Positions 1-23,062 of a stretch of 64,000 nucleotides of DNA are shown here, in pieces. Below the pieces are notes generated by a model. The model saw only the letters and a list, made by a program, of their open reading frames with translations, was not told the origin of the DNA and did not search any database. The translations under genes were made by a program, and so were the position numbers. This stretch comes from Lysobacter enzymogenes (lineage in GTDB: Bacteria; Pseudomonadota; Gammaproteobacteria; Xanthomonadales; Xanthomonadaceae). The first letter of the stretch is position 1; each line of letters begins with the position of its first letter. Location of the stretch: assembly GCF_900106525.1 (NCBI RefSeq), contig NZ_FNOG01000005.1:496001-560000 (forward strand). The letters run 5' to 3'.

Positions 1-3000
1 TGGTTGAGGTAGCTGCCGGCGACGCCGCTGCGGCGGCCGTCGCTGTCGCGCACCTGGCGGTTGCCGACGATGTCGCGGCCGGCGCGCACGCTTAAGTTCC
101 CGGCCGCTTCGGGATTGACCGCGCCGGTGACCGCGACCAGCGGCCCGTTGAGGTTCTGCGGCGAGGCCGCGCCTTCCACCCGCGGCCGCGACGTATCGAC
201 GCCGGTGCCCTCGCCCGGGCGGCCGGCGGTGTAGACGCTGGCCGGCGCGTCGCGGTCGGCGAAGCGCACGTCGCGCGCGGCGACCAGTTCGATCTCGCCG
301 GTGCCGGTGCGCAGCACGTTCGGCAGCAGCAGATCGCTCTGGCCGGGCTTGCGCAAGGTGGTGTGTCCGTCGAAGACGATGTCGGCCGCGCCATCGCCGG
401 CGCGATCGGGCGCGACGCTGGAGAAATCGGCGCCGGCGACGAAGCGGTAGCGGCTGCTGTCGCCGCCGGCCAGTTGCTGCTCCAGCCACGGCGTCGGCCG
501 CTCGACGCTGGCCTGCAGCGTCGGCGTGCGGTCGGCGGCCGGCGGCACCGGGCCGAGCACCGGCAGGCGCGGCGCCCAGGTCATCGGCGGCGATTCGCCG
601 TTGGCGACGCGGTTGGCCAGGTCGATCACGTAGCCGCGGTAACGCTCCAGATAACCGGCGTAGTCGCCCGGGCCGGTCGGCGGCGCGGGTTCGGCGATGC
701 CCGCATCGCCGGTGCCGGCGATGGAGATCAGCAGGTCGATGAAGCCCATCAGCGAAGTGCCGGGGCCGACGATGTTGTCGAGCGCGCTGTCGGGCTTGGT
801 CATCATGCCGAACAGTTCGTCGTACTGGCCGTAGTACTGGCCTGACTCGTCGTTCGGATCATAGGGCTGCGGCGGCGGCAGGAACTGCTCGCTGTCGGGC
901 ATGCTCAGCGGATTGTTCTGCAGCCACGTCATGCGTGCGGCGACCGAGCCGTCGTAGTTGCCGACCGCGCCGCTGCCGGCGGCGTTGTAGTTGTAGAAAC
1001 CGTCGCTGATGCTGGCGTTGACCTGCACGTCGCCGGCCGCGCGCAAGGTCAGCACCGGCGCGGCGCCCTGGTAGCGGAAGTCGGGCGCGTTGCGGTCGCC
1101 GGAGTTGAGGTTCCAGTTGGTCAGCACGCGGATCGCGCCGCCGTCGCGCGTGGCGTCGGGGTTCTGCAACTCGATGCCCGGGCGCGCGCGGAAGTTGCCG
1201 ATGCCGGCGAAGCGCTCGCCGAAGGCGAAGCCCGGGTTCTGCACGAAGCGCATCAGCGTGCCGGCCTGGTGCGCGACGCCGTCGCCGTTGAGATAACCGT
1301 AGAAGCCCTGGTGCGCGGCGTTGGCCGCGTCGGGGGTGAAGTAATGGGTCTTGAGGTACAGCGCGAGCTGCTCCGGCGTCTGCGGCGCGGCCAGTTCGGC
1401 GCCGCTGGCGTCGCGCCACTTGCCGGCGACCAGCTTGCCGTCGCTGCCGTACCAGCCGGCCGGATCGACGATGCCGTCGAAGTGGCGCTCGGGATGGGCC
1501 GGATCGAGCGCATCGCCCGCGCTCCACACCGCATACGCTTCCAGGCCGACTTCGCGCGCGCCGACGATCGCGCCGGGGTTGTCCACCACCACGTTGACGT
1601 CGCCGCCGACCAGCAGCGGCGCGCGCAACTCGACCTTGCCGCCGGACAGGCCGCCGGCGCTGCCGCCGCGCACGTCGATCAGCGCGTCGCGGCCGATGCG
1701 GATCACGCCGGCCGCATCCGCAGCGACGTTCTGGTAGCCGTATTGCTCGTTGAGGCTACCGTCGCTGCGCCCGCTGGTGCCGATGCGCACGGTGCCGCCG
1801 CGCTTGCCGGCGTCGCTGCCGTTGGCGAGCAGGCGGCCTTGCAGCTCCACGCCGTGGCGGCCGTACAGCTCGATGCGCCCGCCGGCGCTGCCGGAGGCGT
1901 CGATGTCGCCGAGGATGCGCACGTTGCCGTTGGCCGCGTCGCGCAGCAGCGCATCGGCGCCGCCGTCGGCGGTCAGGCTGACTTCGTGCGCGCGCAGGGT
2001 GTGCCCGGCGCTGAGTTGCAGATCGCCGCTGCGGCTGCGCACCGCGACGCTGCGGTCGATGCCGCTGCCGGCCAGGCGCTGGGCCAGCGTGTCCAGGTTC
2101 AGCGCCGCGCCGCTGTCGAGTTCGATGCGGCCGCCCTGCCCCTTGGGCGCGGCGCCCTTGAGCGTGCCGTCCAGGCCGATCGCGCCCTGCGGCGCGAGCA
2201 GACGCAGCTCGCCGGCGTCGCCGCCGCCGGCCGCGGCCGAGACGTCGAGGCTGGCGCCGGTCGCCAGGGCGATCGCGCCGCGTTCGGCGCGCAGTTCGAT
2301 GCGGCCGCCGGGCGCGTACACCGGCTGGTCGAAGATCGCCTTCGGCAGCGCCGAGACATCGATGGCGCTGCCCGCGTCCAGGCGCACATCGCCCTGGCTC
2401 GCGACCAGGCTCACGCGGCCGGAATGGGCGCGGATCAGCGCGTTGCCGGCGATGCTGGCGCCGCGCAGTTCCAGCGCGCCGCCTTGCGCGCCGCCGGCAT
2501 CGCTGGCCGCCTCGCCCACGCGCGCCAGGGTGATCGCGCCGCTGCTGCGCAGGCTTTGCTCGGCGCCGCCTTCGGCCTGGATCAGCGGCGCTTGCAGGCG
2601 CAGATCGGCGGCGCCGAAATCGACGCTGCCGCGGCCGCCGGCGGAAATCTGCTGCGCCGCTTCGACCGCCACCTGGCGGAAACCGGCGAACTGCGAATCG
2701 CCGCCGGTGAAGGCGACCGTACCGCCGCGCAACTGCAGCGTGCCGGTGCCCGCCGGCGCGTCGCCGGCCGGGCCGCCCTGCGCGCCGAGTTCGTTGCCCA
2801 CGCTCAGGCGCTGCGCGCTCAAGCGCACATCGCCGCCGTCGCCGCTGAAACGGCGCGCGCTGAGGTTGAGTTCGCGGTCGCTGTCGACTTCGATGTCGCC
2901 GTAGAACGCCATCTCGCCGTAGCTGCGCAGGCTCACCCGCTGGGCCTGGCCGAACTGCGCCAGGGTGTTGCGGCCGACCACGAAGCCGTCGTAGCGCGCG

Positions 3001-6000
3001 TTCGGATCGGCGCTGAACACCACCCGCCCGCTGCTGGCCTGAATGTCGCGCCCGGCCAGCAGCGCGCTGGCGTCGACGCGGGCGTTGCCGGAGGCGTCGA
3101 GCATCAGCGCCGCGCCGCCGTCCAGGCGCGCACCGGCGCCGACTGCGAGCAGCCCGCGCGACTGCGCGAACGCCGGCAGGCCGCGCCGTTGCAGCGTCGC
3201 CGCGCCGGCGTTGGACACGCGCAGCAGCGCGCCGTCGCCGCTGATCGCCGCGCGGTTGGCGGCGCTGTCGGCGTCCTGGCCGATGGTCAGGCGCAGGTCG
3301 CCGGCGCCGGCGAGCGCGCCGCGCGCCTGGATCACGCCGCCGTCTTCGACCCGCACGCCCTGGCTGCCGTCGCCGGCCTTGGCCACCAGCAGGATTTCCG
3401 CGCCCTGCAACGGCGAGGCGGCGTCGTTGGACACCAGCACGTCGCGCGCGCGCACCGAGATCGCGGTGCCGTCGCTGCCGCGCTCGCGCACGCCGCCGAT
3501 CAGCAGGCTGCCGGCGCCGAGTGCGCTGAGCTGGCCGGCGTCGAGCTGCACATAGCCCTCGCGCGCAGTTTGGTTGGCGCCGCGGATCTGGATCGCGTCG
3601 GCGACCAGATCGATCTGCGCCGCGGCGCCGCCATCGGCCGCGGCCACGTCCAGGCGCGCGGCCAGTTCCAGCGCGCGCTGCGCGCTGAGCACCAATTGGC
3701 CGCCGTCGCGCGGCAGCTGCGGTGCGAAGCGGCCGGCCTTGCCGGCCTGATCGGAGAAGAACTTGTTGGCGCGGCTGAGCTGGTACTGCGAGTACTGCCC
3801 CCACACCGCCGCCGACTGCACGTCGAACAGCTGGCTGCGCGCATCGCGCGCGCCGCTGAGCGCATCGACGTAGTAACCGGCGACGCGATGGGTGCCATCG
3901 GGCGCGGTCAGGTTCTGGCTCGCCAGCGCGTCCTGGCCGCCGCTGCGCTGGACCACCCGGAACGCGCCGGGCAAGGTCGCGTAGCGGCCCGGCAGCAAGG
4001 TATAGACGCCGTCGGCCAGCCCCGGCACGCCGGACAGGTACACCGACTTGCCGACCTGGCTGCCGCCCGCGCCCTGGCTCAGCAGCGGATCGCTCGCGGC
4101 CAACGGCGACTGCGCGCCCGGAATGATCGCGTATACCTCGCGCCCGTCCGGATACAGCGACGCGCGGCTGCCGCTGCCGCCGTCGGCGTAACTCACGCCG
4201 ACGCTCGACAACAGGTCGCGGCTGCCGCCGGTGCCGGCGATCCATTCGAAGGCTTGCAGGTCGCCGCCGCCGGACAGGTCGACGCGCGCGCCGTCCTGCA
4301 ACGACAGCTCGGCGCCGTCGAGCGAGATGCGTTTGAGCGGCGGCGCGGTCAGGCGCTGCTCGACCTCGTTGCCGTCCCACTGCAGCGAATCGACGGTCTT
4401 GCCGTACGGCAGCACGCGGCCGTCGAGCGAGACCGAGGTCAGGCTGCCCGGCGCCAGCGTCACCTTGCGCGTCGGCGTCAGCGCCAATTGATTGAACAAC
4501 GCGCGCGTGGCCGGATCCTCGGCATTGGCCGCGCCGAGCACGATCTGACCGGCCGGCGCGCGCAGGGTGCCGGCCTGCTCGATCTCGGTCGCGTCGAGCA
4601 GCAGCTTGCCGCCGGCCGACAGCGGCAGCGGCGCCGCGTTGCCGTTGCCGGCGATGCGGATCGCGGTGTCGGCGCGCCGGCCGCTGGCGTCCTTGGCGCC
4701 GAGCGCGCGCACGATGAAGGTCTCGCCGCTGGCCGGATAGATCTGCGCGGCGCGCAGCGACAGGTTGCCGCCGGTCAGCAGCTCGCCCGGCACCAGCCGC
4801 ACTTCGTTGCCGATGGTCGCGCTCTGGTAGATGCCCGGGGTGTGGAAACGGATGTCGCCGCGGCTGTCGAAGGCCGCGTCGGCGAAGTTGCGCAGCACCA
4901 CGCGGCCGCCGATGTCGATGAAGCCGGCCTCGACGCTGAGCGTGGCCGCGCCGGGCTTGCCCGGCTCCGGCAGCGCCGCAGCCGCGTCGCCGCCGAGCCC
5001 TTGCAGCGACACATAGGCCGAACGCAGGCGCGCCGCGCCGCTGTCGCCGCCGGCCTGGAACGCGCGCGCGTTGATCATCAGCGCGCGCGCCGGCGACAGC
5101 GTCACCTCGCCGTCGAACACCACCGGCACCACGCCGGGGCCGCGGATCAAGCCGTCTTCGCCGATCCCGACCAACAAGGTATCGATGCCGGAGCCGTTAA
5201 GCGTATCGGCCTGGAAATGCAGCGTGCCCGAGGGCTGTTCGCGGCCCGGCTCGATCGCGCCGCCGGCGCGCGCGGACGGATCCAACTGGCTGCCGCTTTG
5301 GTGGAACACGATCTGCGAGGTCGCCAGCGGCGCGCGGCCGCCGGCCACGTCCAGCGGCCGCACGCTCTGCGCGGTCAGCAGCTGCACGCTGCCGCCGCGC
5401 GCCTGCGCGTCGCCGCCGGCGGCCTGGATGCGGCCGTCGAAGAACAGCCCGCCCGCGGCCGCCAGCACCAGCTCGCCGCCGTCGCTCCAGACCGCGCGCG
5501 GCTGCAGCGGCGCCTGGCCGAGCGCGCCGGCGGCGGCCGGCAGGTCGAACACCGCGCGGCTGCCGGACAGGTCCAGGCGCGCGCCCTGCTCGACCACCAC
5601 ATAACCGCCGTCGTTGCTCAGGCGGATGCGGCCGCCGTCGAGCACCTTGCCGTCGCGCGGCGCCGCGCCGCCGTTGGGCAGCGGCGCCTTGAACGGATTG
5701 AACAAGGCGATGCCGGACACGTCGAGCACCGCATTCGAACCCACCCACACCGATTTGTCGGCGCGCCAGTAGTCCACCTGCGACGGGCTGTGCGACGGCG
5801 ACAGCGCATTGGCCGAGGTGTCGCCGGACAGATCGATGCTGCCGCCGTGCGCGGTCACCGAGCCGAGCACGGTGAGCTGGCCGCGCGAGCCCAGCCGCAC
5901 CGCGCCGCCGGCGTCGACCTGCAACTTGGCGTCGCGTTCCAGGGTGAGCGTGTCGCGCACCTGATCGACCCCCGGCACGTTCGGCAGCGTGCGGCCGGTG

Positions 6001-9000
6001 GCGGCGCCGGCTTCGAGGAAGAAGTCGGCGGCGTCGCGGTGGTAATCGTCGAGGCGGCCGAACGCGCCGTAGCGGCCGGCGCCGTCGGCGCCGAGCCCGG
6101 CGTACAGATCGCCGCCGCTGCGCAGTTCGCGCAGCGCCTCGAGGTCGGGCAGGAAATTGCGCTGCGACACGCTGAGCTGGGTGCTGGCGAGGATGCGCGC
6201 GTCGTGGCGCGCGAGCAGATCGTAGGCGCCGAAGTCGCCGTCGCGGAAGAAGCCCGCGTCCAGCTTCAGCGTGCGCGCATCGGCGGCCAGCGCATCGCCC
6301 GCCGCCGCGCCGATCAAAATGTCGCGCGCGTGCAAGGTCAGGGTGCCGCCGCCGGCGAGGCCGCCGCCGCGCAGGTTCTGCGCGGTGAAACGCAGCTCGC
6401 CGGCGCCAGGCTCGGCCGCGAAGTGCGAGGCCGGCAGGAACGGATTCAGCGTCTGGGTGCCTTCGCGCGGTTGGTACAGCTTCAAGGCGATATCGCCGCC
6501 GCGGCCCAGCGGCACGCCGTCCTTGGCCGCGAGCTGGCCGTTGGGCAGGATCCGGCCGCCGCCGGACACGTCCAGCAGCGCGCCCGGATCGAGCAGGATC
6601 GAACCGCTGGCGTCGCGGCCGCCGTCGGCGCCGTCCAGGCGCGGATATTCGGACACGCTCAGGCTGATGCGGCCGCCGTCGATGTGCGCGCCGCCCTGGC
6701 GCTCGTCGGCGACGCGGTCGCGGTCGTTGACCCACTGCCCGCGCGCGAGCAGGCGGCCGCCGTCGCGCACGGTAATGCCGCGGCGCGCGCCGGCTTCGGG
6801 GTTGGGGTCGTTCTCGCTGGTCGCGCTGAGCGCGATCTCGCCCGAATCGGCCTGCAAGGTGCCGGCCACGTCGATGCGCGCGCCGCTCAGGGCGATGCGG
6901 CCGCCGGCGTCGACCTGCAAGTGCGCGTCGCTGGCCACTTCTATCCGCGAGAGCCGGTCGTTGAGCTCGACCGTGCCGAAGCCGGCCTGGTTGAGCGACT
7001 GCGTCGACAAGACGCCACCCTGCCCCTGCGCCAGGCGCTGCTGCAGCGAGAAGTCCGCGGCCACGTCCGCGACCGGACCCGATTGCAGGGTCCACAGGCC
7101 GTAGCCGCCGCCGCTCACGTTCACGCTCAAACGCCCGCCCAGCGCCGGCGTGCCGCGCTCGCGCTGGTCGCGGCCGGACACGGCGTTGGCGCGCAGATCG
7201 CCGGCCAACACCAACCCGGTATCGACCCGGATCGCGTCGGCGCCGCTGTCCTGGCGCAAATTGATGTTGAGCTGGCCGCCGTCGCCGCCTTGCACGTAGT
7301 CGGATTCGTAATAGCGGTCCGAACGCCCGAACGCCGAATAGAAATACTCGTTGACGTTCCAGCGCTGGTGCGCGAGCGAGAACTGCCCGGCGAAACCGCG
7401 GTAGGACTGCGACGGGTCGGCGCCGGCCAGACGATAGGTGCGCCCGTCCGCGCCGATCACCCGCGGCGTCTCGACCATGCCGCCCTGGTAATGCAGGAAG
7501 CCGCCGCTGACGTCGATCACCGAGCCGCCGCGGGCGACGAACTCGCGCGCGCTGACGTTGATGGTGCCGCCGTCGATCAGCATCTGGTCGATGCCGCGCG
7601 GGCGCTGGTCGGCGTAGCCCGAAGCGTTGAACAGCGGGCTGCCGACCCAGGCGCGGCCGTCGTCGGTGACGCCGCGCTCGCGCGCGTCGAGCACGACCTT
7701 CTTGCGGTAGAACGCGCCGCCGCGCAGCAGCGGCGAATCGGCCAGTTCGTTCTCGCCGACGCGTTCGATGGTGATGAAGTTGTCCGACATCGGCCGCAGC
7801 ACGTCGGCCAGGCCGGCGACGTTGATCTGCGCACCGCTGTCGATCTGGATGCGCGCGATCGCCGGCTTGCTGGCGCCGTCGCGCAGCGGGTCCATGCCGA
7901 CCAGGTCGAGCTTGGCGCCGGGCATCAGGATCAGCGAGTTTTCCTGCATGCGCATCTGCGCCGCGGCCAGCACCGCGCTGGGCGGCTGGAAGGCCTTGTC
8001 GGCGGTCGGCGCCGAGGTCGTGGTCTCGCCATCGCGCTCGGGCAGGATCGCGGTGACCGAGCCGCTGCCGAAGCTCAGCGAACCGCCGGTGCTGCCGCTG
8101 AGGTCTTCGGGCCGGTCGATGCCGGCCGAGCGCGCGTGGTTGGCGGCGACGATCGAGATCCGCCCCGGCCGGCTGACCGAGGTGGTGGTGCCGACATAAC
8201 CGTCCTGGTGCAGCTCGTAACCGGTCAGGGTCACCGCGCCGCGCTTGCTGGCGACGATGCCGGTGTTGTCCAGGCGGCCGTAACCGACGACCGCCGCGCT
8301 GGCCTGCGGCGCCACGCCGGCGTAGCGCAGGCTCAGTTCGTTGCTGGCGCCGGACGGCGCCTGGGTCGAGTACGCGCCGACCACCGCGGCCAGCTGCGCA
8401 TGCCCGTCTTCGGCGATCACGCTGCCGGCGTTGTTGACGTTGGGCGCGGCGACCAGGGCGAAACCGCCCGGCGCGGTCTTGAGCTGGGCGCCGGCTTCGA
8501 TGCGCACATCGCCGCTGGCCTGCGGGCGCGGCGCGCCGCCGCCGACGTAGTCGGCCAGCTCCGAGGTCAGCACCGCCAGGTCGGCCTTGGCCCGGCGCAC
8601 GCCTTCGCCGATGAAGATGCGGTTGCTCTGGGCGATGTCGTTGCTGAAGAGATTCAGCGACGAGACCAGCAGCGACCGCGTATTGACCTGGCTGGTGCCG
8701 CCGAAGATCACGCCGTTGCGGTTGAGCAGGTAGACGCTGCCCTCGGCCTTGATCTGGCCGAAGATCTGGCTGGGCCGGCCGCTGGGATCGTCGACCCGGT
8801 TGAGCGCGATCCAGTCGTTGCCGCCGCCGCTTTGGTTGCCGGCGCGCTGGTCGAAATACACCGTGGTGCGGCGGCCGACGTTGAAGCTCTCCCAGCTCAG
8901 GATCGCCTTCTTCTGGGTCTGCTCGATGGTGACCACGACGTTGCCGCCGGCGTCGTTGTTCTGGGTCGGGCCCTTGGCGCCGAGCCACAGCTTGGACTGG

Positions 9001-9419: not shown

Positions 9420-9679
9420 GACGGCTTCCTTGGCGCGGGTCGCGGCGACGCGGCGGAGGCGGCGCCGGGAACGGCGCCGCGATGGAATGGAAACTGCGCG
9501 GTGGTGGCGGTGTGGCGGGTGCGGGCGGTGCGGGAGGCGGCTGCGACACGACCGCGCGGTGTGGATTGATCGCTAAGCGGACGCGCCGCCGTCAGCGTCG
9601 GAGCGAGCGAACTCGACGCCGCGGCGTCCGGCGCTGTGGCGCTGTCGCAATCACCGTCGGCCGCGGGCGCGCGCATCGC
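9420..9679. other. Intergenic leader before tpsA
   Basis: This 260-base gap separates the small secreted protein gene from tpsA. It is the longest gap inside the TPS locus. It contains a GC-rich hairpin around 9458-9480 and the tpsA ribosome-binding site (AAGGAAG on the minus strand, 9424-9431). A separate tpsA promoter or an RNA-level control is possible, but no clear -35/-10 pair was found. Confidence 0.4.
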
Positions 9680-10117
9680 TCAATGCCCCGGCGGCCGCGA
9701 CAGCGGCGTGGTCGGAAAGTTGCGCTCGGGCCGCTGCGGCACGATGGATTTGCCGTACTGGTTGCCGAGCCGCTGCCGCGTCGCCGCCGGCACCGCCAGG
9801 CCCTGCCCGGTCGGCGCCAGCCGTTCGCCCGGCGAATCGGCGGCGCTGACCGGCGCGACCTTGTCGACCTCGGACTTGATCGCGTCGTTGATGCAATCCC
9901 AGCGTCCGGCTTCGTCGCTGCCGATGCGCACCTGCACGCACGGCGGCGGTGGCGATTTCGACGCCGGCAGGATCCGCCGTTGCGCTTGCGCGGATGTGGC
10001 GGCGAGCAGGCTCAACGCCAGCGCCGCGCAAGCGATGCGAGCCGGCACGCCGGCGCGCGAGCCCACACGCGCCTTCGCGCATGCGGCCATCGCGACAGCG
10101 GCGCGCGGCGCGTCCAT
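9680..10117 (-). CDS. Small secreted protein of the TPS locus, function unknown
   Basis: A 145-residue protein with an N-terminal hydrophobic signal (IACAALALSLLAATSAQA-Q, about residues 28-46). The mature part is short and Pro-rich, with two cysteines (PPPPCVQVR and RWDCIND) that could form a disulfide. I do not recognise a family. The start ATG overlaps the stop of the upstream coiled-coil gene as TGATG, which indicates translational coupling and places it in the TPS operon. Its position directly before tpsA suggests a periplasmic accessory for the exoprotein. That role is inferred from position only. Confidence 0.7.
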   Translation of the reverse strand: MDAPRAAVAMAACAKARVGSRAGVPARIACAALALSLLAATSAQAQRRILPASKSPPPPCVQVRIGSDEAGRWDCINDAIKSEVDKVAPVSAADSPGERLAPTGQGLAVPAATRQRLGNQYGKSIVPQRPERNFPTTPLSRPPGH

Positions 10118-10788
10118 CACCCGTTCGAACCGGTGCCGGCGGTGCGCGCGGCGGCGTCGCCGACGCCGCACTGCGCGGTCTTGGCGCGCTCGTCTTCGAG
10201 CTTGCCCTCCAGCTCGCGCACGCGGTTCTCGCGTTCGACCTGGCCGAAGCCGAGCAGCGTCACACGCCGGCCCTTGGCATAGGCCGGGTCGCGATAGAGC
10301 TTGGCCAGCTCCAGCCCGGCGCGATACAGCGCGTCGCTGCCGGCCGCGCACTGCGCCGCGCGCGTTTGCGCCGCCTGCAATTGCTGGGCCAGTTCGGCGC
10401 GCTCGCGTTCCTTCTGCTGCGCGCCGTGCGCCGCCTGCTCCTGCGCGCTGCGCCACTTCTGCGCTTCGCCGCGCGCCTGTTCGGCCGAGGCCGAGGCCTG
10501 GCCCAGGCGCTGCTGCAACGCCGCCAGCTGCGCGCCGTCGGCGGCCGGCGCGGGCTTGGCCGCGCGGTTCTTGAGTTCGTCGCGCTCGCGTTCGGCCGCG
10601 GCGGTGGCGGCCTGCTGCTGCGCCAGCGCGGCCTCGGCCGTGCGCAGGCGCGAGGCGGTGTCGCGCAGCGCGTCGCGCAGGCGGGTTTCGTTGGCGCTCT
10701 GCGCGTGCGCTGCGGAAGCGGCGAACCACAGCGCCGCCAGCAAAGGCGCGCTGCGCAGGGCGGCGTGGCGGATGGTAGGAAGGCTCAT
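10117..10788 (-). CDS. Periplasmic coiled-coil protein of the TPS locus
   Basis: A 223-residue protein with a signal peptide (residues 1-29, cut after AHA-Q). Residues about 32-150 are an Ala/Gln/Glu/Arg-rich heptad region predicted to form a long coiled coil. A more ordered tail (about 150-195) contains AGLELAKLYRDPAYAK and GFGQVERENRVRELE, and the protein ends with a cysteine-containing Ala/Gly tail. No enzyme motif is visible. It starts 15 bases after the porin stop and overlaps the next gene, so it is part of the operon. A periplasmic spacer or scaffold role is inferred. Confidence 0.8.
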   Translation of the reverse strand: MSLPTIRHAALRSAPLLAALWFAASAAHAQSANETRLRDALRDTASRLRTAEAALAQQQAATAAAERERDELKNRAAKPAPAADGAQLAALQQRLGQASASAEQARGEAQKWRSAQEQAAHGAQQKERERAELAQQLQAAQTRAAQCAAGSDALYRAGLELAKLYRDPAYAKGRRVTLLGFGQVERENRVRELEGKLEDERAKTAQCGVGDAAARTAGTGSNG

Positions 10789-10803
10789 GCGCGCTCTCCG
10801 CGG

Positions 10804-12531
10804 TCAGAACTGGGTGTTGAGGTCGAGCTGGACCACATCGACCGAATACGGCTGGCCGGTGACCTCATTGGCGCTGAGCCAGCGCAGCCCCAGCCAGGTG
10901 TTGCGCGCCAGGCCCAGCGCGCCGCCGACGATGAAGCCGCGCGCGTTGGTGCCGCCGAGGTGGAAGTCCGAGTCGGTGAAGGCATCCGGCACCGCATCGG
11001 ATTCGAGCCGCTTGTAGCCGATGCTGGCGTTCCAGTCCCAGGCCTTCTCGATCTTCGGCTGGCCGACCAACAGATTGATGTAGTAACCCATGTCGCCGCC
11101 GTCGAAGACCCCGGTGGCGGCCGGGTCGAAGGTCGGCTTGAAGTTGTTGAGCGGTCCCAGCGCGCGGATGCGCTTGGCGTCGTACTTGAGGTTCTTGACC
11201 ACGTCGGCTTCGATCACGATCTTGACCGGGTCGAAGCGCGCGATCTCCAGCGCGGCGTGCAGGTTGGCCACGCCGAACTCGCTGGCGTAGCCGAAGTACT
11301 GCAGCTGCGGTCCGTTCGGCGCGCCCTGCGCCGGCACGATGTTGCGGATCGAGAACATGGTGTTGCCGAACTGCTGGAACTGCGGGCGCGACAGGTCGGT
11401 GTCGCACACGTCCTTGGAAGTCGGCGCCAGGCACGGCGAAGAGAACTGGCCGTTGAGCTTGTCGAACAGGAAGTAGCCCAGGCCGGCCTTGAGCGACATG
11501 TCGTCGGCGAAGGCCCAGTCGAAGCCGGCCTGCGCGCCGTACAGCCACTTGTCGCGGCTGCTTTCCTTGTCCAGCTCCTGGGTCGAGCCGAAATCGAAAT
11601 CGGTGTTGAACACCGGGAACGCGCCGACGTTGACGAAGCTCTTGAAGTCCGAGCTGTGCCGGAACGAGGCCTGCGCGGCGACGCCGTCGAAGTTGAGGTC
11701 GTTGTCGAACAGCAGCTCGCTGGTCCAGAACGGATTGGGCGTGCGGCCGATGTCGGCGCTGAGCCAGGCGGTCGGCTTGAGCCGCACGTAGGCGCGGTCG
11801 AGCCACAGCGAGTACTTGGACAGATTGCCGCCGGCGCCCAGAGTCTGGTTGGTCGAGACCGGGCTGCGGTCGCTGCCGCTGGCCAGGCGCAGATCGGCCT
11901 CGACCCAGTCGGAGATCTGCGCGTGCATGCCCAGCCGCGCGCGCAGGCGCATGCGGCCGCGGTTCTTGGTGGTGTTGACGTAGGGCACCGGGTTGGCGAC
12001 CGGGTCGGCGACGTCGTAGCCGCTGCCGGCGTTGAGCGCGGCGAAGTTGGGGAACTCGCGGTAGTTCTCGCCGTCGTTGAGCACGTCCTCGGCGCGCGCG
12101 CGCAGGTCGCCGTAGAAGCTGATGCGCTGGGTCCACTCCGGCAGCGCGTTGGGCGCCGCCCAGCCTTCGCTCTTGGCCTGTTGGACCACTTCGGCGCGCA
12201 GCTCGTCCTTGATCTGCTGGCGCACCACTTCCGGCACGTAGGGCACGACCACCGCGCCGGGCGCAGTCTGGTACGCAGGCTGCGCGGCGACGGCCGGGGC
12301 CGGATGCGCCGCCGCGCTCGCGCTCGCCTCGGCGATCAGATCGTCGGCCTGGCCGCGGGTCAGCACGCCCTTGGCGACCAGCAAGTCGATCAGCTTCAGC
12401 GTCACTTCGGGGCTGATCTTCGCCGCGTCCGCCGGCGTGGCCGCCAGCGCCGGCGCGGCGCAGGCCGACAGCAGCGCCAGGGCCAGCGCGTGCAGACGAA
12501 GACGGCGGAGCGGTTGAGTCGAAGCAGTCAT
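10804..12531 (-). CDS. Putative outer-membrane porin
   Basis: A 575-residue protein with a signal peptide ending near PALAA at residue 30. A short helical segment follows (ISPEVTLKLIDLLVAKGVLTRGQADDLI), then a periplasmic linker and a long beta-rich region with alternating aromatic and charged residues, ending in LDLNTQF with a C-terminal Phe typical of outer-membrane barrels. The layout matches the 'putative porin' family, which often carries such an N-terminal helix. The start at 12531 is chosen by GGAAGG nine bases upstream and by the signal peptide; the frame is open further upstream. It follows the TonB-like gene by 58 bases, so it is a candidate outer-membrane partner of the ExbB/ExbD/TonB set. 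Confidence 0.85.
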   Translation of the reverse strand: MTASTQPLRRLRLHALALALLSACAAPALAATPADAAKISPEVTLKLIDLLVAKGVLTRGQADDLIAEASASAAAHPAPAVAAQPAYQTAPGAVVVPYVPEVVRQQIKDELRAEVVQQAKSEGWAAPNALPEWTQRISFYGDLRARAEDVLNDGENYREFPNFAALNAGSGYDVADPVANPVPYVNTTKNRGRMRLRARLGMHAQISDWVEADLRLASGSDRSPVSTNQTLGAGGNLSKYSLWLDRAYVRLKPTAWLSADIGRTPNPFWTSELLFDNDLNFDGVAAQASFRHSSDFKSFVNVGAFPVFNTDFDFGSTQELDKESSRDKWLYGAQAGFDWAFADDMSLKAGLGYFLFDKLNGQFSSPCLAPTSKDVCDTDLSRPQFQQFGNTMFSIRNIVPAQGAPNGPQLQYFGYASEFGVANLHAALEIARFDPVKIVIEADVVKNLKYDAKRIRALGPLNNFKPTFDPAATGVFDGGDMGYYINLLVGQPKIEKAWDWNASIGYKRLESDAVPDAFTDSDFHLGGTNARGFIVGGALGLARNTWLGLRWLSANEVTGQPYSVDVVQLDLNTQF

Positions 12532-12589
12532 GCGTAACCTTCCTGAGTGAATTCGTATCGAAGCGCGCAAGCCGTATCCCAGCGCGGGC

Positions 12590-13270
12590 TCAGCCCGGCG
12601 ACACCGCGCCGATGCGCAAGTTGATCGGCTGCGGCATCTCCGCCGGCGGCGCCTGCGGCAACGAGCGCCCTTGCAGCGCGGCAAGGATGGCCGCGTCGAG
12701 CTCGGGCTTGCCGGTGCCGGCGATCACCTGCGAGCGCTGGATCGTCCCGTCCGGGTTCAACCACATCGCCACCGTGGCGCTGTAGCGTCCCTTGCGGGTT
12801 TTCTCGCCTTGTTGCAGGTACTGCTGCACGGTCCGCTGCACCATCGCCGCGTAGCCGGCATACGGATTGCCGCCGCCGCCCTTGCCGCCGATGCGGGTGC
12901 CGCCGCCGCCCTCGCCGGCCTGCAGACCGAACTCGTTGTTGCCGGGCCCCGCGTCGGCGGTCAGCGGATCGCCCGGCGGTTCGGCCGAATCCTGTTTGGG
13001 CGGCTCGATCGATTCGAACGGCGTGTTCTCGATCGGCTTGGGTTCTTCGGTGGTCTTTTCCGGTTCCGGCGGAGGCGGCGGTGGCGGCGGCGGCAAGATC
13101 ACCTGGGTGATGCGCGGCGGCTGGCGCTTAGCGGTCGGCCCGGCGCCTTGCATCAGCGACCACACCAACCACGCCATCACCGCGACGACGCCGATCACGC
13201 CGAGCACGCCCATCGCGCGCGAGAACCGGGAACCGCGGCCGTAGGTCTGCGACACGTCCGGGCGCCCCAC
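12590..13270 (-). CDS. TonB-like energy transducer
   Basis: A 226-residue protein with TonB architecture: a cytoplasmic N-terminus, one membrane segment (about 19-41), a Pro-rich periplasmic linker with a run of prolines at 60-68 followed by Pro/Glu stretches, a Gly-rich stretch (about 118-135), and a C-terminal domain (about 140-226) resembling the TonB C-terminus (YSATVAMWLNPDGTIQRSQV, GKPELDAAILAAL). Translation starts at a GTG immediately after the exbD stop. Its own ExbB/ExbD genes precede it, so it is likely dedicated to this locus. Its outer-membrane target may be the porin or TpsB, which is inference. No TonB-dependent receptor gene was seen in the window. Confidence 0.85.
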   Translation of the reverse strand: MGRPDVSQTYGRGSRFSRAMGVLGVIGVVAVMAWLVWSLMQGAGPTAKRQPPRITQVILPPPPPPPPPEPEKTTEEPKPIENTPFESIEPPKQDSAEPPGDPLTADAGPGNNEFGLQAGEGGGGTRIGGKGGGGNPYAGYAAMVQRTVQQYLQQGEKTRKGRYSATVAMWLNPDGTIQRSQVIAGTGKPELDAAILAALQGRSLPQAPPAEMPQPINLRIGAVSPG

Positions 13271-13675
13271 TCAGCCCTGGCCCTGGCGCTGCGAGGCCAG
13301 GCCGATCGAGGAAATGCCGAGCTTGCTGCACAGGTCCAGCACCGCCATGACCTTGTCGTACTGCACCGCGCGGTCGCCGCGCAGGATCACCGGCAACTCG
13401 GCGTCGCTGGCCAGCGCGTTGCGCAGCTGCTGTTCCAGCTCGCTCATGCTGACCGGCACCGCATCGATGCTGACCTGGCCGGCGTTGTCGATGGCGATGA
13501 CCTTGGTCTTGGGCTGCGACAGCGGCTGCGCGGCGCTGGCCTTGGGCAGATCGACCTTGATGCCCTGCACCGCCGCGGTGGTCATGATGATGAAGATCAC
13601 CAGCAGCACGTACGCCAGGTCCAGCATCGGCGTGATGTTGATGTCGTCGTAAGGCTTCTTGCCCTGGACCTTCAC
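13271..13675 (-). CDS. exbD: ExbD-type biopolymer transport protein
   Basis: A 134-residue protein, close to the usual ExbD length. It has a cytoplasmic N-terminus with the conserved INITPMLDLAYVLLVIF segment. Asp19 in this membrane helix corresponds to the proton-pathway Asp of ExbD/TolR. One membrane helix spans about 18-39 and a periplasmic domain (about 45-134) follows. The GTG start overlaps the stop of the upstream proton-channel gene as GTGA, and the stop abuts the TonB-like start, so the three genes are translationally coupled. It forms the stator with the ExbB-like partner and transmits the proton-motive force to TonB. Confidence 0.92.
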   Translation of the reverse strand: MKVQGKKPYDDINITPMLDLAYVLLVIFIIMTTAAVQGIKVDLPKASAAQPLSQPKTKVIAIDNAGQVSIDAVPVSMSELEQQLRNALASDAELPVILRGDRAVQYDKVMAVLDLCSKLGISSIGLASQRQGQG

Positions 13676-15492
13676 GGCAGCGTCTCCGTCGACACGCTGC
13701 GGGCCAGGTGCGCCGGCAGCGGCGCGTCGCCGGCGTAGTCTTCGGCGATGCGCTTTTCCAGCTCGTCGACGAACACCTGCATGTCCGCGCCGATGGCCTC
13801 GGTGCGGCTGAGCAGGTAGTTGTAGCCGAACAACGCCGGGATCGCGACGGCCAGGCCGGCCACCGTGGCCAGCAGCGCCGCGGCGATGCCGGGCGCGATC
13901 GCGTTGATGTTGACGTCGCCCGCCGCGGCCACCGCGGCGAAGGTGATCATCACGCCGACCACGGTGCCGAGCAGGCCCAAGAACGGGCCGCCGGAGATCG
14001 CGATGGTCAGCAGCACCATCAGCTTGTTGAGGCGCTGGCCTTCGCGCACCGCGGCGGCGTCGAGCGCCGAGCGGATCGCGGCGATCGACTGCGGCCGCAC
14101 CACCGAACGCCCGCCGCCGGCGGCGACGCGGTTGCGCAGCTCGTCCAGGCCGATGGCGAGGATGCGGGCGAGATTGGACTTCTCGCCGCTCAGCGGCCCG
14201 CCGCCTTCGGCCGCGCGCACCCAGGACACATCGTGCAGCGGGTACTCGCCGGCCTGCTTGCGGAAAGCCTCGAGGAAGCGCTCGTTGGCCTTGGATACGG
14301 TGTTGACGAACAGGCCCTTGCCGATCATCACCCACCACGAGATCGCGGCCATGAAGCCGAGAATCACGATCACGATCCAGGCGTCAACGGTGAGCGCGCT
14401 GAACAGGATGCCGAAGTAGTTGTGGCCGCCGTCGCCGGAGCGCTGTTCGACCGGCTGGAAGGTCAGCAGCTTGGCGTCCAGGCCCTGGCTGTGCGCGGCG
14501 ACCTGGATCAGGCCGAGCGGCCGCGCGACCTTGGACAGCTGCAGTTCGTCGATCTGGCCGATGAAGTTCGGCCGCGCCGCGCCGTCTTCGCCGCCGATCC
14601 ACAAACCCGCGGCGGCCGCCGCCGGCGCAACCGCGGCTTCGCCGGCCGGCGCGCCGTTGACATAGACCGCGAGCTTGCCGGCGTCGACGCGCACCGCGAG
14701 GTGCGCCCAGCCTTCGCCGACCAGCGGCGCGCCGGCCGAGGTGCGCACGCCGCCGGCTTCGGCGTAGACCACGCCCTGCTCGATCAGCAGCGTCAGCGCG
14801 CCCGGCAAGGACGCGATCACGCCGCTGGCGTTGGCGCCGGCCGGCTTGATCCACGCGCTCAGGGTCAGCGGCTGCGCGGCGGCGAGATTGAGCGAGGCCG
14901 AGGCCGGCACTTTGACCGGCGCCTTGCCGTCGAGCTGCAGGCCCGAACCGATCAGCGCGGTCTCGGCCAGGGTCAGCGGCGCCTGCGCGTTGTTGCCGTA
15001 GGCGGTGGTGTCGGTTCCGGCCGCGCCCTGGTTGGCGAAGTGGAACACCGCGACGTTGTCGGCGTCGTAGCTGCCCTTGGGGTCGCTGCCGGGCGTGGCT
15101 TCGGGATTGCCGAAGTAGACGAACACCGACGCCGCCGCGTTGGCGTCGAGCTTGGGCACGTCGACCCAGGCCAGCGCGACCTGGTCGACCAGCCCGTCGT
15201 ATTTCTCGAAGTGGTACTTCAGCGGCGTGCGGTCGTCGGCGGCGATGAAGCGCACGTCGCTGCCGTCCTCCTTGGCGTCGGCGAAGTTGAAGTTGCCCGA
15301 GTGCAGGCGCACCAGCACCTGCGCGCGGCCGCCCGGCTCGGTCATCGCCGCGCCGGCCGAGGTGGTGTTGAGATCGATCTTGGCCCGGTAGTTCCACTTG
15401 CCGTCCCACCACGAGGCCGCCGCGGCCGGAGCCGACAGCAGCGACAGCAGCAGCAACAGCGAACAGGCCAACAACACGCGCAATTGAGTCAC
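13672..15492 (-). CDS. DUF2341/LamG-like periplasmic domain fused to an ExbB/TolQ/MotA proton channel
   Basis: A 606-residue fusion protein. Residues 1-26 form a signal peptide. Residues about 27-135 resemble DUF2341 (WWDGKWNYRAKIDL near the start, VFVYFGNPEA near the end). Residues about 145-325 look like a LamG/concanavalin-type beta-sandwich (VAVFHF, LTLSAWIKP, GWAHLAVRVDAGKLAVYVNG, IDELQLS). One membrane segment lies at about 369-391. The C-terminal part is an ExbB/TolQ channel with helices at about 491-522 and 531-560 (GGPFLGLLGTVVGVM, INAIAPGIAAALLATVAGL). The start is taken as the GTG at 15492, behind GGGGAAAG and directly before the signal peptide; a frame extending to 15621 is less likely. 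The large extracytoplasmic region may bind a ligand or peptidoglycan and gate the motor; that is inferred. Confidence 0.88.
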   Translation of the reverse strand: MTQLRVLLACSLLLLLSLLSAPAAAASWWDGKWNYRAKIDLNTTSAGAAMTEPGGRAQVLVRLHSGNFNFADAKEDGSDVRFIAADDRTPLKYHFEKYDGLVDQVALAWVDVPKLDANAAASVFVYFGNPEATPGSDPKGSYDADNVAVFHFANQGAAGTDTTAYGNNAQAPLTLAETALIGSGLQLDGKAPVKVPASASLNLAAAQPLTLSAWIKPAGANASGVIASLPGALTLLIEQGVVYAEAGGVRTSAGAPLVGEGWAHLAVRVDAGKLAVYVNGAPAGEAAVAPAAAAAGLWIGGEDGAARPNFIGQIDELQLSKVARPLGLIQVAAHSQGLDAKLLTFQPVEQRSGDGGHNYFGILFSALTVDAWIVIVILGFMAAISWWVMIGKGLFVNTVSKANERFLEAFRKQAGEYPLHDVSWVRAAEGGGPLSGEKSNLARILAIGLDELRNRVAAGGGRSVVRPQSIAAIRSALDAAAVREGQRLNKLMVLLTIAISGGPFLGLLGTVVGVMITFAAVAAAGDVNINAIAPGIAAALLATVAGLAVAIPALFGYNYLLSRTEAIGADMQVFVDELEKRIAEDYAGDAPLPAHLARSVSTETLP

Positions 15493-15535
15493 GACACTTT
15501 CCCCGATAAATGTTCGGTACGGCTTCGAATCGCTC

Positions 15536-15634
15536 GTTGTGGGAGGGCCTCGGATCCGACGCTTTTCGCTCAGGTCCCGGTGCCGGCTGCGGCGTTCGGG
15601 AACAAGAACATCGGGGCTCAAACCTCTCCCACAC
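15536..15634. repeat. Degenerate palindromic repeat, 'tgtgggaggg' family
   Basis: An imperfect inverted repeat lying between tpsB and the ExbB-fusion gene. It begins with ttgtgggagggcctcgg and ends with ctctcccacac. A cleaner copy of the same family lies at 20603-20694. As it sits inside an apparent operon, it could form an mRNA hairpin affecting stability or the TpsB-to-ExbB expression ratio. Confidence 0.65.
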
Positions 15635-15652
15635 TTCAGACTTCAGACTTCG

Positions 15653-17248
15653 TCAGAACTCGCCCCACAGCCGCACGCCCACCTCGACCGAGTCGGGTTT
15701 GCGTTCGCGTCCGTTGGGGCTGGACAACGGATGGGCCACATCGATGGAACCGTTGAAATGGCCGAAGGCCTTGACCGTGGCGCCGATGCCGGCGCTGACC
15801 AAGGTTTCGCTGCGCAGCTGCTCGGGCAGCGGGTCGTTGATGCGGGTGTAGCCGGCGTCGACGAACGCGCGCAGGCGCAGCTCCTGGAACGCATCGCCGA
15901 GCGAGTCGGCGAACGAAGGCGTGCGCGCTTCCAGCGTCGCCGCCCCGCCCAGGTCGCCGAGCGCTTCGGATTCGTAATAGCCGCGCACGCTGTCGAGGCC
16001 GCCGATGCTGAATTGCTCGTTGCTGATCAAAGGCTCGCCGGCGAACTGGGTCTGCAGGCGCAGCATCAGTTGCGCGTCGCTCTTGGACTTCCAGGTGTAG
16101 GAGCCGCCGGCGCGCAGATAGAAGAAGTTGGGCTGGGCCTGGTAGCGCTTGGCGTCGAACGCGGCGCGGCCGTCGCCGACGCCGCGCAGGTTGAACACCG
16201 CCGACAGGGCCAGGTCGGCGACCGAGCGCTCTTTCACCCAATCGGCGTTGTAGTTGACGCTGAGCGGGAAGTACTCGATCGGCACCGCGCCGCGGTCGGC
16301 TCCCTGGATCAGCGACTCGGTGAAGTCCTTGTAGTCCACGCCGAGGCTGAGCGAATGGTAGAAGCCCTCGCCCGCGGCGAAGGAGCGCATCAGGCGCACG
16401 CCGGCCAGGGTGCCGTTGCCGATCACGTTGAGGTCGCCGACCACGGCGATGTCGCTCTTGCTGCGCACCGCATAGCCCAGCAGCGACCACGGCGAGGCGC
16501 CGAAGCGGGCCAGATACGAGGCCGAATACACCTGCGCGTCGGAACTGCGCTGCGGCGCGACCTGCGCCGACAGGCTGAAGCTGTGGCCGCGCTGCCACAG
16601 ATTGTCGTAGCGCACGCTGGCCGACAGGCGCTGGTCGGTGGTGTTGGCGCTGTTGCGGTTGTTGAGCTCCAGCGAGCCGTGCAGCGGCAGCGCGTTCTCG
16701 ACGTTGAGGTCGACATCGACCGTGTTGGGCGTCGCGCCGGCCTTGATTTCCGGGGTGACGCGGCGGTCGGGCAACTGGTTCAGGGCGAGGATGTCGCGCT
16801 GCACGTCCTTGAAGTTCGGCACCGAGCCCGCGGCCAGCGAGGGCGCGGCGCGCTCGATCTCGTCGGGCGAGAAATAATCGGCGCCGTTGACGCGCAGGCG
16901 GCCGACCTTTTGTTCGTTGACTTGCAAGGTAACCAGCCCGGTGGCCACGTCCTGTTCGGGAATGACCACGCTGACGGTGGGATAGCCGCGGCTGTCGTAC
17001 AGCGACTGCAGCGCGGCGCGCGCGTTCTCCACGTCCTGCTCGCCGCGCTGCGGGCCCAGGTGCGGGTAGACGATCTTTTCGATGTCCAGGTTGCTCAACT
17101 TGCTGTTGCCCAACACCTGATAGGCCAGGATGTCGAAGCGCGGCGCGGCCGCCGGCGCGGCGTCGGCGCGGGCCGGATTTTCCTGCGCATGGAGAACCGC
17201 CGGCCCGAACATGGTCAGACCGACGGCTGCGATGAGGCGTAGATGCAT
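15653..17248 (-). CDS. Two-partner secretion outer-membrane transporter (TpsB; ShlB/FhaC/HecB family)
   Basis: A 531-residue Omp85-superfamily transporter expected to export the TpsA encoded at the operon's far end. A signal peptide ends near LHAQ (about residue 21). POTRA-type domains follow (about 35-190: FDILAYQVLGNSKLSNLDIEKIV, GYPTVSVVIPEQ, GLVTLQVNEQKVGRLRVNG). The C-terminal 16-strand barrel includes the conserved strand EQFSIGGLDSVRGYYESE, whose VRGY lies in loop L6, and ends in VGVRLWGEF with a terminal Phe. The ATG at 17248 is chosen because the signal peptide starts there. It is the first gene of the minus-strand run, so the promoter should lie in the 770-base gap upstream. Confidence 0.94.
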   Translation of the reverse strand: MHLRLIAAVGLTMFGPAVLHAQENPARADAAPAAAPRFDILAYQVLGNSKLSNLDIEKIVYPHLGPQRGEQDVENARAALQSLYDSRGYPTVSVVIPEQDVATGLVTLQVNEQKVGRLRVNGADYFSPDEIERAAPSLAAGSVPNFKDVQRDILALNQLPDRRVTPEIKAGATPNTVDVDLNVENALPLHGSLELNNRNSANTTDQRLSASVRYDNLWQRGHSFSLSAQVAPQRSSDAQVYSASYLARFGASPWSLLGYAVRSKSDIAVVGDLNVIGNGTLAGVRLMRSFAAGEGFYHSLSLGVDYKDFTESLIQGADRGAVPIEYFPLSVNYNADWVKERSVADLALSAVFNLRGVGDGRAAFDAKRYQAQPNFFYLRAGGSYTWKSKSDAQLMLRLQTQFAGEPLISNEQFSIGGLDSVRGYYESEALGDLGGAATLEARTPSFADSLGDAFQELRLRAFVDAGYTRINDPLPEQLRSETLVSAGIGATVKAFGHFNGSIDVAHPLSSPNGRERKPDSVEVGVRLWGEF

Positions 17249-22537: not shown

Positions 22538-23062
22538 ATGGCCGACTTCTCCCTGTACTTCCCGCAGCTGCTGACCTTCGAAGGCGGCTACGTCGACAAC
22601 CCCGCCGATCCCGGCGGCGCCACCAACCGCGGCATCACCCTGGCGGTGTTCCAGGCCAACGCGCGCGCCCTGCTGGGCGTGGCGCCGACGCTGGAGAACC
22701 TTCAGGCCCTGACCGAGCCGCAAGCCGCCGCGCTGTACAAGGCGCTGTACTGGGACCGCATCGACGGCGACGCGATCGCGTCGCAACTGCTGGCCGAGAT
22801 CGTGTTCGACTTCTACGTCAACGCCGGCTTCCACGCGATCACCCTGCTGCAACGCCTGCTCGGCCCGCCGCTGGCCAGCGACGGCCTGTTCGGGCCGGAC
22901 ACGCTCAAGGCGCTGCAGGACGCCGATCAAGCCGCGTTGTACGCGCGCTATCGCCAGGGCCGGATCGACTACTACACCGAGCTGGCGCAAGCGCATCCGA
23001 TCCTGCAGCGCTTCCTCGCCGGATGGCTGCGGCGCGCGACCTGGTTCCCGGCGCAGGCCTGA
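22538..23062 (+). CDS. Glycoside hydrolase family 108 lysozyme-like protein
   Basis: A 174-residue protein matching GH108 N-acetylmuramidases. The N-terminal FEGGYVDNPADPGGATNRGIT holds the predicted catalytic Glu15 and family signature. The middle (YWDRIDGDAIASQLLAEIVFDFYVN) and the C-terminal peptidoglycan-binding-like part (ASDGLFGPDTLKALQDAD, about 110-175) complete the usual length. It cuts the glycan strands of peptidoglycan. No signal peptide is present, as in phage endolysins or enzymes exported with a holin or a secretion system. No other phage gene lies nearby. It sits with a GNAT gene between rarA and lolA, suggesting local insertion. Confidence 0.9.
   Translation: MADFSLYFPQLLTFEGGYVDNPADPGGATNRGITLAVFQANARALLGVAPTLENLQALTEPQAAALYKALYWDRIDGDAIASQLLAEIVFDFYVNAGFHAITLLQRLLGPPLASDGLFGPDTLKALQDADQAALYARYRQGRIDYYTELAQAHPILQRFLAGWLRRATWFPAQA

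Follow-up and report, generated by a model that had tools for sequence, protein, structure and literature searches.

The 64,000-nucleotide stretch of the Lysobacter enzymogenes genome studied here (contig C8:496001-560000, hereafter the window; genome size 6.26 Mb, window G+C content 69.6%) carries an eight-gene locus that joins a two-partner secretion (TPS) pair, the exoprotein TpsA and its outer-membrane transporter TpsB, to genes for a fused ExbB (ExbB*), ExbD, TonB, a Porin_5 porin, a periplasmic coiled-coil protein and a small secreted protein. The grouping of these genes into a module is far above chance, and this association makes it well supported that the motor serves this TPS subclass. 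It is very probable that the motor acts on two-partner secretion at all. Our fuller proposal, to which we give about even weight, is that the locus represents a subclass of TPS coupled to a proton-driven motor of its own, with the TonB of that motor gripping the TpsA tail, the porin or both. In the genomes sampled the subclass is nearly always accompanied by a proton channel and a TonB of its own, which makes it testable whether the inner membrane exerts energised control over some giant adhesins, and the Pseudomonas genes exbB2-exbD2-tonB4 gain candidate partners in an 11-residue tail motif and a porin segment.

Conservation of the module

We compared the locus with the best 80 of at least 175 named ExbB* relatives matched by an alignment of 12 fused ExbBs, which come from Proteobacteria, Verrucomicrobia and one Anaeromyxobacter metagenome-assembled genome; the closest named ExbB relative among the matches listed is that of Lysobacter sp. 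yr284 (93%, best segment). With our own locus and five stretches from other genomes they make 86 stretches, although L038 and L104, whose TpsA tails are identical, are apparently one contig counted twice. Because the set was picked by ExbB* likeness, it tests linkage to TPS and not how frequent the ExbB fusion is. A TPS gene accompanies exbB* within the stretch in 77 of the 80 named relatives and in 83 of all 86: TpsB stands directly 5' of exbB* in 58 stretches, the TpsA C-terminus takes that place in 18, and seven of the remaining 10 have a TPS gene elsewhere, which leaves three stretches with none (L091, L106 and L107, of 14.9, 18.6 and 4.2 kb). Family profiles seeded with the proteins of our locus and scanned across the 86 stretches matched ExbB in 86, ExbD in 86, TonB in 83, the porin in 80, the coil in 71, TpsB in 61 and the small protein in 28. 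The ExbD match is 3' of exbB* in every stretch, and TonB (82/86), porin (79/86) and coil (71/86) follow on the same strand within 5.2 kb. The complete order ExbB*-ExbD-TonB-porin-coil is kept in 66 of the 80 named relatives, in 70 of the 86 stretches overall, and in 65 of the 72 that have more than 5.2 kb of 3' sequence; most of the exceptions (L055, L057, L097, L104, L106, L038 and L039) lack only the coil match. A tandem duplicate of exbD was seen between exbB* and tonB in L075, L091, L097, L103, L109, L112, L131, L132 and L133.

An earlier examination of this DNA made from its letters alone (the sequence-only reading) had taken these genes for one unit, and whether Exb and porin genes occur independently of TPS genes in relatives has been answered in its favour by three genome samples. 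Among 200 Pseudomonadota genomes (one draw), 44 have matches to the fusion at E<=1e-20, full-length in only five; the other 39 are of a partial type that starts at about residue 340, which is the plain channel part. DUF3739, the domain that ends TpsA, occurs in exactly those five genomes, and Porin_5 in the same five plus one marginal match (G154, 7e-4); ShlB, the ordinary TpsB, is present in 83. With relatedness ignored, the chance of an identical five of 200 is about 4e-10 (1/C(200,5)). ExbB* and DUF3739 again share the same five genomes among 119 of the family of G130, taken as Pseudomonadaceae, and among 149 genomes of our locus's own family 12 carry ExbB* (that of G214 cut at a contig start) and 13 carry DUF3739, 12 being common to both. 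In one genome of the G130 family sample, G378 (C155:1130-2895), the ExbB* match is split over two adjacent frames, which points to a broken gene or an assembly error.

Ordinary TPS loci served as the control: in 20 stretches chosen around ordinary TpsBs, mostly high-scoring, none has an ExbB, ExbD, TonB or porin profile match within about 10 kb, and one has a coil match. Our own genome (G000) holds a second ShlB-type TpsB (C15:783057-783932), likewise with no ExbB, ExbD, TonB or porin profile match within about 10 kb. Between the trees of six module families the distances show correlations of 0.65-0.91 (0.89 for TpsB and ExbB*), each pair above 500 permutations, with shared organism history contributing to these values. 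The 60 TpsBs of the system that were placed in a tree form a single clade against 25 ordinary TpsBs (support 1.0). Our locus has all the features of this DUF3739 TPS subclass, namely a DUF3739 TpsA, ExbB*, Porin_5 and a TpsB of the single clade.

Components of the locus

The features are as follows (window positions; all on the minus strand).

15653-17248, minus strand: tpsB, outer-membrane TPS transporter with a short Ala/Pro-rich N-terminus (POTRA_2 3.2e-16, ShlB 5e-24)
13672-15492, minus strand: exbB fusion (ExbB*), with a signal-peptide-like start, then DUF2341, Laminin_G_3 and MotA_ExbB (Pfam)
15070-15267, minus strand: DUF2341 part of ExbB* (PF10102 2.5e-12)
14521-14925, minus strand: LamG/concanavalin-like part of ExbB* (PF13385 2.2e-16)
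13777-14133, minus strand: proton-channel (ExbB/TolQ/MotA) part of ExbB* (PF01618 1.6e-26)
13271-13675, minus strand: exbD (PF02472 3e-28)
12590-13270, minus strand: tonB, with a hydrophobic N-terminal segment, a Pro-rich spacer and a TonB/TolA-type C-terminal domain (TonB_2 2.3e-10)
10804-12531, minus strand: Porin_5 outer-membrane porin with a periplasmic N-terminus (PF16930 1.4e-194)
12229-12252, minus strand: porin N-terminal motif VVVPYVPE, candidate TonB-binding strand (regular expression, model)
10117-10788, minus strand: periplasmic coiled-coil protein, in the PA0697 position (no Pfam match)
9680-10117, minus strand: small secreted protein with a Cys pair and a conserved C-terminal Gly/Pro motif (no Pfam match, 9680-10082 scanned)
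1-9419, minus strand: tpsA, N-terminal 3,139 codons with the TPS domain near the N-terminus; continues to window -2556

The eight same-strand genes that the sequence-only reading described are all there, from tpsB to tpsA, and its junctions (GTGA at 13672, stop/start at 13271/13270, TGATG at 10117) fit the gene boundaries and the start codons found; the GTG start of the exbB fusion was assigned from homologues, with the codons checked. Its inclusion of tpsA stands as well, with the correction that the gene runs 2.6 kb beyond the window edge. A gap of 160 bp separates tpsB from exbB and another of 260 bp precedes tpsA, so a single transcript for the whole unit is likely but unproven. Consensus scans found no sigma-70-like sites, and terminator-like sites are near chance (seven against 5.3 in shuffles, standard deviation 2.5).

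The complete tpsA gene (C8:493444-505419, window -2556 to 9419) encodes 3,991 residues, with a TPS domain at residues 155-370 (PF05860 6.5e-21) and DUF3739 at the C-terminus as the only Pfam matches at E<=1e-3. The locus does not fit a contact-dependent inhibition (CdiBAI) system, which would have a C-terminal toxin domain and an immunity gene: no Pfam domain beyond DUF3739 was found at the TpsA C-terminus, and an immunity gene was not searched for. DUF3739 and the tail lie beyond the window. TpsA ends of this type share a layout in which DUF3739 is followed by a linker, often Ala/Ser-rich, and then by 11 conserved residues, the first of them 12-69 residues from the C-terminus (AVISVQVIGFG in our TpsA, at C8:493486-493518). 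This motif resembles what we take to be TonB boxes of the DTITVTA kind. Under leave-one-out scoring 26 of 33 tails reach at least 20, compared with a maximum of 15.3 in 3,300 shuffled tails and of 14.9 in the C-termini of 876 long open reading frames (ORFs), real or not, our own TpsA aside (29.8, present in that control under an N-terminal label). In eight complete long frames next to ordinary TpsBs the score never exceeds 0.4; four of these frames have a TPS-domain profile match, and the other four were called TpsA from their size and position. As a weak hold-out, 20 further DUF3739 C-termini were scored on the best-motif-scoring frame of each stretch, and 17 reach at least 20; the motif of L183, missed by the frame filter, was seen by eye, which makes 18 of 20. 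Some longer tails (e.g. L119, L056 and L173) have another V-x-V-x-G-x-G stretch resembling the first, and after it a charged end that looks helical.

An AlphaFold model of the last 330 TpsA residues (37 sequences; predicted local distance difference test, pLDDT, 77) has a beta-rich body that is confident to about residue 265, and a tail from about residue 269, motif included, that is of low confidence and unpaired. A folding back of the motif by DUF3739 onto the domain itself was considered and rejected, as the motif is free in the model. A search for a solved fold gave no match at E<=0.001, weak beta-helix matches (pectate lyase, E 0.18) being the top ones, and so the TpsA end is called solenoid-like by its strands only. 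C-terminal Cys hooks are known in retained exoproteins such as CdrA and HMW1, and a Cys pair follows the motif in 10 of 33 tails, our own included. In some TpsAs this pair may contribute to retention; as a general anchor a Cys hook was rejected, there being no Cys in the last 330 residues of 21 of 32 tails.

The porin offers a second candidate. Its N-terminus is a variable linker with one conserved short stretch, G-x-V-R-V-x-Y-V-P-E, which a relaxed regular expression finds in 73 of 79 porins and a stricter one in 44; the six misses are two truncated proteins, three near-misses (VPYLSE, VQFVPE and VQFVPV) and L105, in which the motif is present but lies beyond the segment compared. In a model of the 575-residue porin (pLDDT 85) the motif is without secondary structure, just ahead of a helix and the barrel. 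The best fold matches are the Veillonella attachment porin OmpM1, the Campylobacter MOMP and DcaP; no TonB-dependent receptor is among the 50 fold matches listed, and no solved relative was found by sequence at E<=1.

Within TpsB the region before POTRA1, measured by a heuristic signal-peptide rule, has a median of 20 residues in 61 TpsBs of the system (34 have at most 20) as against 53 in 29 of 30 ordinary TpsBs taken as best-scoring ShlB matches. Among the sequences inspected it is mostly Ala/Pro-rich in the system and often Gln/Arg-rich and helix-like in ordinary TpsBs. FhaC carries a plug helix, and we read the short region as a probable loss of such a helix. A TonB box on TpsB was also considered and set aside, the consensus of the 61 proteins having no conserved short motif before POTRA1.

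For the channel part of ExbB* the nearest solved structure by sequence is TolQ, followed by ExbB. The small secreted family, found in 28 of 86 stretches, has a Cys pair in most members and a C-terminal G-x-S-x-x-P-x-R/P, and its gene lies near tpsA or on the opposite strand. Genes flanking our module match glyoxalase, SapC, MgsA-type ATPase, CrcB and FtsK in a Pfam scan, and farther on an endolysin-like gene (window 22538-23062) combines Glycosyl hydrolase 108 with a peptidoglycan-binding domain.

Proposed mechanism and alternatives

According to the mechanism that we propose, TpsB would export the giant TpsA N-terminus first, as is standard in TPS. The last 60 or so residues, a disordered tail with a beta-strand-like motif, would arrive last and could stay periplasmic, where the operon TonB, energised by the ExbB*-ExbD proton channel, would bind them by strand addition in the style of a TonB box. 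What pulling would achieve we infer: the proton motive force may be used to keep the surface fibre in place, put it under tension or let it go. The porin, with its exposed N-terminal motif and attachment-porin-like fold, may be a second TonB partner or an outer-membrane anchor, and the LamG/DUF2341 head of ExbB* in the periplasm could be a ligand- or glycan-responsive regulator, or a tether. Engagement of the tail by TonB is the reading that most specifically accounts for the presence of the motif, for where it sits and for its lack in those ordinary giants that were tested, and we give it slightly less than even weight. The evidence points at the tail and the porin, rather than the TpsB pore, as the partners of the motor.

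Several points weigh against this proposal. Seven of the 33 tails score only 1.8-12.6 (L097, L127, L103, L112, L109, L110 and L129), several of them being recognisable by eye, and both tails of G155 (L189 and L190) diverge, at 11.2 and 4.2. The further tails are a weak hold-out because many are close kin of training tails (L188 of L119; L178 and L181 of L104; L171, L172 and L176 of our own), and the likeness of the tail motif to a TonB box is an apparent one, drawn from known examples. The porin motif competes with the tail as a candidate TonB partner. For TpsB, 13 of 61 proteins of the system have 40 or more residues before POTRA1, and five of 29 ordinary ones also have 20 or fewer. G240 has DUF3739 without ExbB*, in a frame truncated near a contig start, and the genome draws overlap (G000, G094 and G130 recur) and are not phylogenetically independent. 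Finally, at the related Pdt/PUMA3 locus of P. aeruginosa PAO1, insertions in tpsA, tpsB, the tonB homologue and PA0696 are reported to have wild-type virulence in a VreI-induced zebrafish assay (PMC2729926), so that there is no known motor phenotype to report.

The porin deserves serious consideration as a partner of TonB, in place of the tail or beside it, and an uptake system is the rival that survives best, although we consider it unlikely. TonB would then gate the porin, and the TpsA fibre would capture or bind a substrate at the cell surface, as HxuA does for HxuC, making the coupling of TPS and motor functional and not mechanical. The HxuB/HxuA pair with the haem receptor HxuC is a precedent, and the conservation of an apparently unstructured porin motif within a variable linker fits such a gate, as does the P. 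aeruginosa locus in what is reported of it, being under phosphate-starvation and VreI control beside secreted phosphatases (PMC2729926, PMC7035377, PMC9769906). However, Porin_5 folds like general and attachment porins and not, among the matches listed, like a TonB-dependent receptor, and the TpsA tail motif looks closer than the porin's to a TonB box.

Still less probable, in our view, is an energised translocation in which TonB would act on the POTRAs or barrel of TpsB, opening or driving the pore for a substrate of about 4,000 residues in place of the plug helix. The adjacency of tpsB and exbB* in most stretches, the short region before POTRA1 and the correlated TpsB and ExbB* trees all agree with it. 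Nevertheless, that region has no conserved motif in the 61 TpsBs; ORFs of about 2,000-3,300 codons stand beside ordinary TpsBs with no motor gene within about 10 kb; and type V secretion is regarded as needing no energy source, with none having to be added for translocation into liposomes, as a review reports (PMC5422565). Least probable, and doubtful at best, is a co-regulated cassette in which Exb-TonB-porin would form a Tol-Pal-like envelope brace during TpsA-inducing stress without contacting TpsA or TpsB: the TonB_2/TolA-type domain of TonB, the TolQ likeness of ExbB* and the OmpM1-like porin fold favour it, but the association is with one TpsA type and one TpsB clade, not with TPS generally.

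Comparison with known systems

Classical TPS systems (FhaB/FhaC, ShlA/ShlB) have the same TPS-domain exoprotein and POTRA-barrel transporter as our system, which differs in its separate TpsB clade, shorter pre-POTRA stretch, dedicated ExbB/ExbD/TonB and porin, and DUF3739 with a TonB-box-like tail. The TonB-ExbB-ExbD and TolA-TolQ-TolR motors consist of the same three protein families as ours; unlike theirs, our ExbB carries DUF2341 and LamG domains. The HxuA/HxuB/HxuC haem system likewise has a TPS exoprotein working with an outer-membrane protein, the TonB-powered HxuC; HxuC is a dedicated haem receptor, whereas our locus has a Porin_5 porin and a private TonB set. DUF2341 on such channels is listed with function unknown in a 2025 MotAB paper (PMC12505986). 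Searches of the literature returned nothing on DUF3739 together with secretion; for two-partner secretion and a TonB box only the PUMA3 paper was relevant by title, and for two-partner secretion, proton motive force and ExbB no title concerned a motor-coupled TPS. Such a gene arrangement is thus on record for one group of organisms, and a few others have been noted to have it. Neither its standing as a separate TPS subclass that crosses phyla nor the tail motif of TpsA turned up in these searches, and both are apparently new.

The closest known system is Pdt/PUMA3 of P. aeruginosa (phdA-pdtB-exbB2-exbD2-tonB4-PA0696-PA0697, with pdtA), which, comparing PAO1 by its published gene list, has the same TpsB-ExbB-ExbD-TonB-porin-coil order. 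The PUMA3 paper reports an association of PUMA3, in several genera, with TPS, ExbBD and PA0696 homologues; of four PUMA3 clusters in R. palustris and Janthinobacterium, three have tpsA after them, and the remaining one precedes tpsB together with homologues of exbBD and PA0696 (Llamas 2009, PMC2729926). In a later paper exbB2-exbD2-tonB4 is still uncharacterised and PA0696 is a putative porin (PMC7035377), and another lists PdtA, PA0696 and PA0698 among the proteins most raised under phosphate limitation (PMC9769906). The sequence-only reading had held that the ExbB fusion, the porin and the periplasmic proteins go beyond the pdt layout. This does not hold for the first two or for the coil: PAO1 lists PA0696 as a putative porin and PA0697 in the coil position, and the ExbBs of all nine named Pseudomonas loci carry DUF2341, Laminin_G_3 and MotA_ExbB by Pfam. 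The small Cys-pair protein is the one extra without a counterpart in the PAO1 list.

Signalling and other genes accompany the module in part of the set. The nine named Pseudomonas loci and L041 have transposase/Phd-like, YbjN-, PpiC- and LysR-type genes around it (one member per cluster gave DUF772 with a sub-threshold Phd match, YbjN, Rotamase and LysR by Pfam), and PAO1 is reported to have such neighbours at PA0691 and PA0698-PA0701 (PMC2729926, PMC7035377). Across the 86 stretches, near-module clusters are FecI-like in 21, FecR-like in 22, PpiC-like in 31 and YbjN-like in 26, with one member of each checked by Pfam. Extra matches to the TonB profile, which was built iteratively and includes these proteins, occur in 21 stretches, or 19 once L038 and L104, where they overlap the operon TonB, are set aside. 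Two of three tested by Pfam combine STN with TonB_2, the VreA layout, and the third, a short protein in L060, has no Pfam match and rests on the profile. Short profile matches were noted in L056, L058, L060, L065 and L069, and in L183 (G344, C3:92250-93550) a short protein right after tpsA has a signal-peptide-like start and looks TonB/TolA-like by eye, with no Pfam match. The PUMA3 paper models VreA as STN plus TolA/TonB and suggests outer-membrane partners (PMC2729926). We may speculate that the operon TonB and the VreA-type domains recognise a common ligand. A tentative extension, against which the balance lies, is that these TPS substrates would carry their own C-terminal TonB box, that a motor with a ligand-sensing ExbB would grip the periplasmic end of the fibre to retain, tension or release it, and that soluble VreA-type STN/TonB proteins in some relatives would read the same tail as decoys controlling its gene.

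Our own locus shares with the Pseudomonas loci L119 and L124 a DUF3739 TpsA end with the tail motif, and differs from Pdt/PUMA3 in having the small Cys-pair gene and tpsA directly after the coil gene. Unlike PUMA3, our stretch (C8:491001-523000) is in none of the FecI, FecR, YbjN, PpiC, LysR and Phd clusters, and it lacks any additional TonB-domain match. Because it is without VreA/VreI/VreR-type genes and Phd/YbjN/PpiC/LysR neighbours, we regard it as a relative of the PUMA3 locus and not as a PUMA3 locus itself.

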